Positions 42,322 to 53,697 of a stretch of 64,000 nt of DNA are shown piece after piece; positions within the stretch are counted from its first letter, which is position 1, and every line of letters begins with the position of its first letter. The DNA is from Ectopseudomonas mendocina. GTDB lineage: Bacteria; Pseudomonadota; Gammaproteobacteria; Pseudomonadales; Pseudomonadaceae. The stretch covers positions 1-64,000 of the forward strand of contig NZ_VRYE01000037.1 of NCBI RefSeq assembly GCF_008041835.1, read 5' to 3'. The translations under genes and the position numbers were made by a program. The notes below the pieces were generated by a model. It had not been told where the DNA came from and did not search any database. It was given only the letters and a program-made list of their open reading frames with translations.

Positions 42322-42350
42322 CCGTCATCCCCGCGAAGGCGGGGACCCAG
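42322..42350. repeat. CCCCGCGAAGGCGGGG palindrome at the 3' end of the GIY-YIG gene
   Basis: CCGTCATCCCCGCGAAGGCG and onward folds as TCCCCGC-GAAG-GCGGGGA (42328-42345). It forms the last codons (GSPPSRG) and stop of the GIY-YIG gene, and the same sequence recurs upstream of that gene at 42811-42840. Confidence 0.85.
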
Positions 42351-42654
42351 CAGCAAGAGACGAATCACCAACAATCTCCGACCAGAGATCCTGCCATTGC
42401 GGATTTCGCTCTTCGATCAGGCGCAGCTTCCAAGCACGATTCCATTTCTTGATCGCCTTCTCCCTGGCTATCGCGCCACTCATACTTTCATGCTGCTCGT
42501 ACCACACCAGCAACTTCACGCCATAGCGGAGTGTAAAGCCCTCAACGACCCCCTCTCTATGCTGCCAGACACGCTGCAGCAGATCCGCTGTAACTCCGGT
42601 ATAGAGCGTGCCATTACGCTGACTGGCCATAATGTAAACGGCGGGTTGTTTCAT
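42325..42654 (-). CDS. Small GIY-YIG nuclease-domain protein
   Basis: 109 residues forming one GIY-YIG domain: VYIMASQRNGTLYTGVT supplies the GIY and YIG (here YTG) strands, with catalytic Arg in LQRVWQHR and Glu in AREKAIKKWNRAWK; the family signature EERNPQWQDL follows. No separate DNA-binding domain is present. I use the ATG at 42654 (MKQPAVYIMAS); 17 further upstream codons look unrelated. Repeats lie at both gene ends. The family has been linked to single-stranded DNA cleavage in Neisseria; activity here is inference. Confidence 0.88.
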   Translation of the reverse strand: MKQPAVYIMASQRNGTLYTGVTADLLQRVWQHREGVVEGFTLRYGVKLLVWYEQHESMSGAIAREKAIKKWNRAWKLRLIEERNPQWQDLWSEIVGDSSLAAGSPPSRG

Positions 42655-42768
42655 GCTGCAGTCCTTTGCAGATTGGGCCCTCGATAGGTATGAAGGCCTA
42701 TTCATCGATCGATTTAGGCCCGAACGAAAAAATCGCTCCTACAAGCCAGGACAACCTTAGCACCGCGG

Positions 42769-42840
42769 CTGGATCCCCGCCTTCGCGGGGATGACCTCGG
42801 GTTTTCTATCGCCGTCATCCCCGCGAAGGCGGGGACCCAG
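42769..42840. repeat. Inverted pair of CCCCGCCTTCGCGGGG palindromes upstream of GIY-YIG gene
   Basis: GGATCCCCGCCTTCGCGGGG at 42770-42789 (extending to GATGAC) and GTCATCCCCGCGAAGGCGGG at 42814-42833 are two palindromes facing each other across about 20 bases. The same unit is at 42322-42350. The pair lies between fleR and the GIY-YIG gene and could also stop fleR transcription. Confidence 0.85.
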
Positions 42841-42871: not shown

Positions 42872-42905
42872 CAGCTCAGCTCAGCTCAGCTCAGCTCAGC
42901 TCAGC
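42872..42905. repeat. CAGCT pentanucleotide microsatellite after fleR
   Basis: Nearly seven exact copies of CAGCT (34 bases) end five bases before the fleR stop on the downstream side. It is outside the coding frame but within the fleR 3' transcript; five-base units could slip during replication. Confidence 0.9.
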
Positions 42906-45680: not shown

Positions 45681-46832
45681 CTTTGCGGCGTTAGGGATGT
45701 TCTGAAAAAGTTACTTACCGTCACTCCCGCGAAGGCGGGAGCCCAGGAGTTTCGCAGGTTCTGGATTCCCGCCTGCGCGGGAATGACGAGTTTTCCAGAG
45801 TTTCCTTAGCCTGAGGCTGAGGAATCAATCCTCTTCCTGACCATCCTCTTCGCGGCGGCTCATACCGTACTTGCGCATCTTCTCCACCAGGGTGGTACGG
45901 CGAACCGGCTTTCTTTGCGGCGTTACGGATGTTCTGAAAAAGTTACTTACCGTCACTCCCGCGAAGGCGGGAGCCCAGGAGTTTCGAAGGTTCTGGATTC
46001 CCGCCTGCGCGGGAATGACGAGTTTTCCAGAGTTTCCTTAGCCTGAGGCTGAGGAATCAATCCTCGTCCTGACCATCCTCTTCGCGGCGACTCATACCGT
46101 ACTTGCGCATCTTCTCCACCAGGGTGGTACGGCGAACCGGCTTTCTTTGCGGCGTTAGGGATGTTCTGAAAAAGTTACTTACCGTCACTCCCGCGAAGGC
46201 GGGAGCCCAGGAGTTTCGAAGGTTCTGGATTCCCGCCTGCGCGGGAATGACGAGTTTTCCAGAGTTTCCTTAGCCTGAGGCTAAGGAATCAATCCTCTTC
46301 CTGACCATCCTCTTCGCGGCGACTCATACCGTGCTTGCGCATCTTCTCCACCAGGGTGGTACGGCAAACCGGCTTTCTTTGCGGCGTTAGGGATGTTCTG
46401 AAAAAGTTACTTACCGTCACTCCCACGAAGGCGGGAGCCCAGGAGTTTCGCAGGTTCTGGATTCCCGCCTGCGCGGGAATGACGAGTTTTCCAGAGTTTC
46501 CTTAGCCTGAGGCTGAGGAATCAATCCTCTTCCTGACCATCCTCTTCGCGGCGACTCATACCGTACTTGCGCATCTTCTCCACCAGGGTGGTACGGCAAA
46601 CCGGCTTTCTTTGCGGCGTTACGGATGTTCTGAAAAAGTTACTTACCGTCACTCCCGCGAAGGCGGGAGCCCAGGAGTTTCGCAGATTCTGGATTCCCGC
46701 CTGCGCGGGAATGACGAGTTTTCCAGAGTTTCCTTAGCCTGAGGCTGAGGAATCAATCCTCGTCCTGACCATCCTCTTCGCGGCGACTCATGCCGTACTT
46801 GCGCATTTTCTCGACCAGGGTGGTGCGGCGAA
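45673..46832. repeat. Five tandem 232-bp units carrying the fleQ 3' end
   Basis: Units start with CCGGCTTTCTTTGCGGCG at 45673, 45905, 46137, 46369 and 46601, period exactly 232. Each holds a paired palindrome (for unit one 45717-45789, including a perfect ATTCCC-N8-GGGAAT at 45765-45784) and then about 80 bases equal to the fleQ 3' end (last ~26 codons and stop, minus strand). The fifth unit is the real fleQ end. Units A-D differ from fleQ mostly at third codon positions. The 1.2-kb fleS-fleQ gap holds no other gene. Confidence 0.95.
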
Positions 46833-53586: not shown

Positions 53587-53621
53587 TAGCCGTATCCTGA
53601 CGCTTAGGGATATTCTGAAAT

Positions 53622-53697
53622 AGTCGTCATTCCCGCGAAGGCGGGAACCCAGAAGCTGCGCAGCACCTGGACTCCCGCCTTCGCGGGAGTGACGGTG
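53622..53697. repeat. Paired CCCGCGAAGGCGGG palindromes beside the toxin gene
   Basis: GTCATTCCCGCGAAGGCGGG at 53627-53646 and ACTCCCGCCTTCGCGGGAGT near 53672-53691 face each other. They are the same repeat family as in the fleQ array and at the GIY-YIG gene. The first differs from ATTCCC-N8-GGGAAT by one base. The unit directly abuts the toxin stop. Confidence 0.85.

Follow-up and report, generated by a model that had tools for sequence, protein, structure and literature searches.

The window analysed here is a stretch of 64,000 nt of Ectopseudomonas mendocina DNA (contig NZ_VRYE01000037.1) from a genome of 4.79 Mb in 248 contigs, G000 in our analysis. Its minus strand carries, in the fleR-fliE interval, a small GIY-YIG nuclease gene with palindromes on both sides; matches to the same palindrome pattern are also found beside fleQ and parDE. 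The features are as follows.

42323-42350, plus strand: CGTC palindrome on the 3' side of the gene, CGTC pointing outward and CCAG towards the gene
42325-42654, minus strand: GIY-YIG nuclease gene, 109 aa, Ssn-like subfamily, its last seven or eight codons and the stop lying within the palindrome
42769-42796, minus strand: CGTC-type palindrome on the 5' side of the gene, head GGTC, CCAG towards the gene
42813-42840, plus strand: third palindrome, tag to tag with the copy at 42769-42796
45691-46740, no strand: fleQ-side array of five 232-bp units, each combining duplicated local DNA with a TIR-bearing unit in which two palindromes face each other with their CCAG ends
53604-53695, no strand: parDE-side copy of the palindrome-pair unit, with one of the two inverted ends recognisable

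The open reading frame occupies 42325-42705 of the minus strand, and a start at the ATG at 42654 gives the 109-aa product. The protein belongs to the GIY-YIG superfamily (PF01541 in Pfam, 54.3 bits against a cut-off of 22.6, E=1.7e-14); domain searches and the AlphaFold2 model revealed no other domain in it, and PADLOC, PHROGs and NCBIfam assigned it to no family. The catalytic role of Tyr, Tyr, Arg, Glu and Asn in this fold is established, and the conserved catalytic residues are in place: Y7, Y18, R28, E65 and N84 are invariant in an alignment of 26 proteins. The domain is modelled confidently by AlphaFold2 (mean pLDDT 89.6), with values below 50 for residues 99-105. The top fold matches of the model are UPF0213, Slx1 and UvrC domains, the nearest solved fold being YhbQ/UPF0213 (PDB 1zg2 and 1ywl; Foldseek E 6.5e-4, phmmer 0.028); the Pseudomonas copies of YhbQ/UPF0213 proteins are 28-36% identical to the window protein. 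The closest named homologues of the gene come from Pseudomonas sp. ZH-FAD and P. oleovorans. In one homologue (L017, G194:C1:147641-147928) the sequence GTLSVG replaces GTLYIG, so that the second motif tyrosine is gone; this gene, in a genome with 62 palindromes, is possibly a recently inactivated nuclease.

An earlier note, written from the sequence alone, had the gene ending inside a palindrome and an inverted pair of the same palindrome upstream. Both observations hold: the TGA stop (42325-42327) forms part of the palindrome's own TGAC end, and the upstream pair lies at 42769-42796(-) and 42813-42840(+). In 12 of 80 homologues, too, the stop codon falls inside a detected palindrome. The palindrome at the gene end reads CGTC ATCCCCGC GAAG GCGGGGAC CCAG, and no T-run follows the hairpin at the stop. 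Allowing up to three mismatches, we observed 15 matches to CGTCATNCCCGCGNNNGCGGGNANCCAG in the window, with 0.00 expected from shuffles: 42323-42350(+) and the upstream pair, ten matches within 45719-46716, and 53625-53652(+)/53667-53694(-). The palindrome is repeated genome-wide, with 40 copies at the same threshold in the window's genome versus 0 for the reversed pattern; given the mean density in this genome, the chance of finding at least one within 500 bp of the gene is ∼0.011.

The window palindromes share with the CGTC-1 family of REPs the CGTC tag, an 8-bp stem with A/T first pairs, a 4-nt loop and the CCA tail (PMC3733652); of the three copies beside the gene, two begin the stem with A opposite C, and the remaining one has GGTC. 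The earlier note's likening of the repeat to Neisseria dRS3 agrees with these features, and the same paper assigns dRS3 to CGTC-1. Its authors describe CGTC REPs from five phyla that have no association with transposase genes and apparently no dedicated transposase (Di Nocera et al. 2013, PMC3733652), and leave it open what makes or moves these repeats. The window palindromes differ in that a nuclease gene adjoins them.

Two details of the upstream region may be mentioned. As judged by eye, Pseudomonas sp. P818 and P. guguanensis have the spacer between the tag-to-tag palindromes (42796-42813) in the opposite orientation to that of the window, which is what hairpin-mediated inversion would produce, and a short tandem run of CTCAG pentamers occupies 42879-42905, near the third palindrome.

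Most palindromes of G000 have another setting. They occur as pairs with facing CCAG ends, ∼14 nt apart, within a ∼110-bp unit bounded by the inverted ends TTAGGGATGTTCTGAAAAAG...CTATTTCAGAGTTTCCTTA, and an IS-like end of this kind, if not both, lies near 33 of the 42 palindromes classified; in at least three copies, TTA was seen by eye at both ends of the unit (TIR TTAGGGATGTTCTGAAAAAG). No such ends accompany the three palindromes at the gene. Thus, the repeat reported earlier beside parDE and in the fleQ array is indeed there as a pattern match (two and ten matches, respectively) while belonging to a separate, MITE-like unit, and the reading of these copies as a sign of spreading by the nuclease is not supported: the ∼110-bp unit has inverted repeats of its own, is arranged in tandem at fleQ and is absent at the gene. 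For the same reason G000 copy number is no measure of nuclease activity. The perfect ATTCCC-N8-GGGAAT ascribed to every array unit is present in one palindrome of each; its partner reads ACTCCC...GGGAGC. The duplicated DNA in the array units derives from the fleQ end, and the number of units varies, with one in P. oleovorans DSM 1045 and none in Pseudomonas sp. P818. We also considered the pairs with a 14-nt spacer as REPIN-like derivatives of the gene-bearing cassette and rejected this idea, since their own surrounding inverted repeats mark a separate unit.

At sampled sites of Pseudomonas genomes lacking the gene, TIR-type ends were seen at 3/7 (G177), 5/7 (G078), 2/6 (G012), 0/6 (G093) and 0/4 (G166) sites. 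Of the 38 sites sampled in G027, G194 and G054, 34 had none, and among the sampled sites of G027 (8/14) and G054 (11/18) tag-inward pairs were the commonest arrangement. A TIR-like match at G000:C180:73796-73815, with no listed palindrome alongside, could lead to an autonomous element.

The association of gene and palindrome was assessed at 80 loci (genome contigs) fetched with a protein profile blind to repeats, the best 80 of at least 549 relatives; the detector required GTC, an 8-bp stem, a loop of 3-26 nt and CCA, and the reversed sequence served as a control. A palindrome was found within 500 bp of the gene at all 80 loci, at 59 of them on both sides, versus 4/80 in the control, and palindrome density was 2.25 per kb near the gene versus 0.13 farther out (17-fold). 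A second set of best-scoring relatives from a Pseudomonadota sample (30 loci fetched minus the window's own) gave 27/29, with misses at L170 and L173 and 2/29 in the reversed control; L156 of this set and L047 are one record, and two loci of the genus set recur in the same way (L015 as L043, L018 as L067). Orientation was biased too: the nearest upstream palindrome was on the plus strand in 50 of 61 cases and the nearest downstream one on the minus strand in 46 of 64. An earlier version of the detector (loop 3-6) had found palindromes at 75/80 loci, and a stricter 7-pair version missed 10/80 and 8/29 because it rejected a mismatched first pair. Judging by record title, Elusimicrobia, Planctomycetota, Nitrospirota, Myxococcota, Deltaproteobacteria and Ignavibacteria are represented among the 80 loci, many of these by MAGs.

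Other GIY-YIG genes behave differently. Loci of YhbQ-like genes had palindromes in 0/8 cases, taken from eight palindrome-bearing Pseudomonas genomes that carry the gene; a wider control gave 0/23, a weak result since 22 of the 23 come from genomes without any match to the pattern. Within the window's genome there are four GIY-YIG matches, and only the gene at 42325-42654 has palindromes within its ∼3.2-kb locus.

Comparison of whole genomes pointed the same way. Close homologues (118-241 bits, the next score being 33) were found in 8 of 199 Pseudomonas genomes. All eight carried the repeat (13-187 copies) and had palindromes close to the gene, which in G120 were confined to the upstream side; of the 191 genomes without the gene, 5 had the repeat (4-28 copies); kinship among the genomes means that p=2e-11 overstates their independence. 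Among 397 Pseudomonadota genomes the gene (E up to 1e-20) was found in 110 and the CGTC-1 pattern in 110: both in 63, gene only in 47, pattern only in 47 and neither in 240, so that the pattern occurs in 63/110 genomes with the gene versus 47/287 without it (p=4e-15). Two of the checks proposed in the earlier note, on orthologue flanks and on repeat counts with and without the gene, therefore came out in favor of the pairing. Two observations count against reading gene and palindromes as a functional pair that is mobile: 47 of 287 genomes without the gene have the pattern, some of them in 188, 72, 52, 49 and 41 copies, and 47 of the 110 gene-bearing genomes have no CGTC-1 pattern. Other stems were detected in some of the latter; we therefore rejected genome-wide presence or absence of CGTC-1 as the whole test.

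These other stems adjoin the gene and keep the same head and tail; in several genomes without CGTC-1 they include GTCATCCCGGA...TCCGGGACCCAG, GTCATTGCGGGCTTGACCCGTAATCCAG and a 55-nt GTCATTCTAGGG...CCCTAGAATCCAT. Protein and palindrome have diverged together: over 128 loci the distances between proteins and between palindromes are correlated (Mantel r=0.58), a value reached by 0 of 2000 permutations. Paralogues within one genome follow the same rule. Two or more paralogues with palindromes on both sides were available from 11 genomes (25 of 73 loci). Here the left-right palindrome distance within a locus averaged 0.088 versus 0.19 when right sides were dealt out within the genome, and 1 of 5000 permutations was as low; paralogue loci tend to have matching left and right palindromes that differ from those of sister paralogues. 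An example is G533, which has six paralogues, four of them with their own palindrome type on both sides and two with none detected. Including these two, 25 of the 73 paralogue loci have no palindrome in the expected orientation, which again counts against the cassette being mobile.

Multiple copies of the cassette, all but one in each genome partial or internally deleted, were found in two genomes. G407, which belongs to the same phylum as the window's genome and to another class, has an intact cassette (L281) and five partial or internally deleted copies (L289, L293, L297, L301/L305 at one place, and L304), with 81-92% identity per segment. In all six the first 12 nt from CGTC are identical, while in the 10 nt before CGTC agreement is 0.48 versus 0.39 for shuffled flanks, a pyrimidine-rich bias being common to the outer flanks. 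Among the five copies, BLAST places the left end at CGTC in one and 11-22 nt further left in the other four, and the latter count against a sharp boundary. On the right, L304 ends within 2 nt of the inverted head, and L293 (the other of the two) ends ∼30 nt beyond it, which likewise counts against sharpness; the two copies miss different internal parts. No target duplication was seen by eye. Thus, G407 has what is expected of a transposable element, namely multiple copies with common ends and different flanks; the window's genome, with one gene copy, does not.

G587 has an intact cassette and, dispersed over six contigs, six further copies with one and the same internal deletion (query position ∼66 joined to ∼249). 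These copies have a further ∼55 bp in common beyond the left palindrome, out to CTGTCTCTTGTGCACA, which we take to resemble an IS4/Tn5-type end, so a larger unit may have spread them. We therefore rejected them as a proof of nuclease-driven movement. Together with the IS-like repeats next to 33 of 42 G000 palindromes, this extension suggests that other transposases are probably behind some of the spread.

Presence and absence among close relatives can be followed at one locus. In Azospirillum lipoferum 4B, sufB and sufC are 617 nt apart and have the cassette between them. The gap measures 91, 87 and 129 nt in A. ramasamyi, A. oryzae and Azospirillum sp. B510, respectively, whose matched flanks are 95.6-96.6% identical, and it holds neither the gene nor a detected palindrome. 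At fleR-fliE the gene is absent from G177, G012 and G078, where fliE is 93-94% identical; the intergenic DNA has diverged, so boundaries of this empty site are not placeable. A single gene copy occupies the same fleR-fliE place in G000, G064, G063 (L043) and four more named Pseudomonas. The cassette is thus gained and lost between relatives, and, judging from these comparisons, it appears to be mobile. In the window's lineage it looks settled between fleR and fliE, with few palindromes of its own type elsewhere.

Two known systems offer themselves for comparison. The Neisseria protein Ssn is reportedly a GIY-YIG nuclease that cuts single-stranded DNA at dRS3-type sites (NTS/dRS3) and affects transformation, and its homologues are said to have sequences of their own; the family is defined by site-specific cleavage of single-stranded DNA only. 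Like the proteins considered here, it is a stand-alone GIY-YIG protein of ∼95 aa. The Neisseria gonorrhoeae homologue L068, which presumably is the Ssn protein of that study, is 68% identical to the window protein and has dRS3-type repeats around it. The gene and palindromes of the window are probably a further case of this Ssn-plus-repeat pairing, with Ssn as reported; the cassette architecture, the deletion derivatives and the link to the CGTC class of REPs come from the present analysis, and no paper joining CGTC REPs to a GIY-YIG protein was among the literature matches listed, which do not include the Ssn paper.

The second system is RAYT/REP/REPIN with its GTAG REPs, which the earlier note had invoked. 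Here too a small enzyme gene is flanked by its associated palindromes and accompanied by dispersed non-coding dimers, as in the REPtron, although in G000 most of the dispersed copies bear TIRs. The likeness is upheld by the flanked orthologues, by the greater frequency of the repeat in genomes with the gene, by co-divergence and by cassette copies with sharp ends or internal deletions in two genomes. The enzymes differ: a RAYT is an HUH tyrosine transposase, our protein has a GIY-YIG domain only, its tag is CGTC rather than GTAG, and its activity is predicted. The gene is therefore not a RAYT, and it may work in a like manner. A RAYT and a GIY-YIG gene are listed separately in PMC9465073.

We propose, with a probability of about 0.6, that the gene belongs together functionally with its CGTC hairpins and that the two form a mobile unit, similar to RAYT/REP, in which a GIY-YIG nuclease takes the place of the HUH transposase. 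The proposal builds on the observed pairing and how widely it occurs, on the joint divergence of protein and palindrome, on unit ends that are sharp in one genome, on copies with internal deletions dispersed in two, and on presence or absence at one locus; recognition of the hairpin, its cutting and single-strand transposition are predicted steps. The unit would have the order CGTC-hairpin, gene, inverted hairpin, GACG, in the manner of a REPtron. Where DNA becomes single-stranded during replication, repair or DNA uptake, the hairpin would fold, and an Ssn-type nuclease would recognise it in the single strand and cut at the CGTC-tagged end. Repair or annealing would then occasionally copy the hairpin-bounded segment elsewhere, and deletion derivatives and solo hairpins might be spread in trans. 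Because a hydrolytic nuclease acts without a covalent intermediate, host repair would have to do the joining, the weakest step of the proposal; the occasional pasting of a hairpin-bounded strand would explain why the ends are sharp and no target duplication is evident.

Homing is the main rival: a free-standing endonuclease would colonise pre-existing CGTC hairpins whose movement has another cause. Homing endonucleases classically have the GIY-YIG fold among their types, the gene sits between inverted hairpins as though inserted into a hairpin pair, most classified palindromes of G000 lie in the gene-less TIR-bearing unit, and recognition of a lineage-specific hairpin would likewise yield co-divergence. 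Still, palindromes and gene recur together in G407 with the shared sequence starting at the palindrome, G587 has multiple copies of deletion derivatives that lack the gene, no hairpin is present at any of the three empty sites in Azospirillum, and the repeat is absent from 186 of the 191 Pseudomonas genomes without the gene; we thus regard homing as unlikely. We judge it quite unlikely that the nuclease is instead domesticated, the repeats serving as marks, for instance in cutting incoming single strands or tuning transformation, with mobility old or absent. The constant fleR-fliE position of a single copy in G000, G064, G063 and the four named Pseudomonas would suit such a function, as would the effect that Ssn reportedly has on transformation and the fact that no match was found among 50,697 phage records or in 31 plasmid records (30 of them of at least 300 kb, several chromosome-sized). 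Multi-copy cassettes with deletion derivatives fit a mobile element better, however, and the gene varies in presence among close Azospirillum and is absent from 191 of 199 Pseudomonas genomes. A role in DNA uptake by the host would agree with transposition and with homing alike.

There is little to recommend the possibility that the palindromes are passengers spread only via classical TIR/DDE elements, the link to the nuclease being secondary. The TIR unit with its TTA ends, the presence of the fleQ unit in P. oleovorans and its absence from Pseudomonas sp. P818 agree with it, as does the fact that all CGTC-1 dimers of H. neapolitanus are reported to lie also within a longer palindrome (PMC3733652). 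Against it, no TIR of this kind is carried by the gene's own palindromes or by 34 of the 38 sites sampled in G027, G194 and G054, and the G407 cassette copies start at the palindrome itself, which makes this explanation very improbable. That GC-rich terminator hairpins happen to stand beside a small gene deserves hardly any credence: the hairpins are indeed close to the stop codon, but the reversed control (4/80), the 17-fold enrichment near the gene, the YhbQ-like loci of the same genomes (0/8), the sequence-specific head and tail and the missing T-run all speak against coincidence.

A wider claim may also be considered, to which we give somewhat less than an even chance: hairpin-ended cassettes of the form CGTC...GACG, with a ∼95-aa GIY-YIG single-strand nuclease and lineage-specific cognate hairpins, would be a large overlooked class of transposable elements, distributed over Pseudomonadota and six other phyla (by record titles), and the source of deletion derivatives and of the CGTC REP superfamily, including dRS3 and perhaps rhizobial intergenic mosaics. 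The GIY-YIG gene may be the missing enzyme for this large family of orphan repeats. REP-type repeats would then have a second origin, in a hydrolytic nuclease as opposed to an HUH transposase, and with a nuclease gene and its own hairpin type in each lineage, the origin of CGTC REPs becomes a question that is testable in vitro. Should the nuclease also move the unit, transposition would proceed by a hairpin and a hydrolytic single-strand nuclease, as in no known transposase class. The four paralogues of G533 that each lie between their own hairpin type are ready-made specificity variants for single-strand DNA tools.

A separate observation concerns the Sinorhizobium meliloti replicon pSymB, where a homologue (L398) lies between palindromes with a CTCA head. 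The 1701-base region around it has at least 1231 matching places in 201 records of Rhizobium, Sinorhizobium and relatives; our guess is that these repeats are the RIME elements of Rhizobium.
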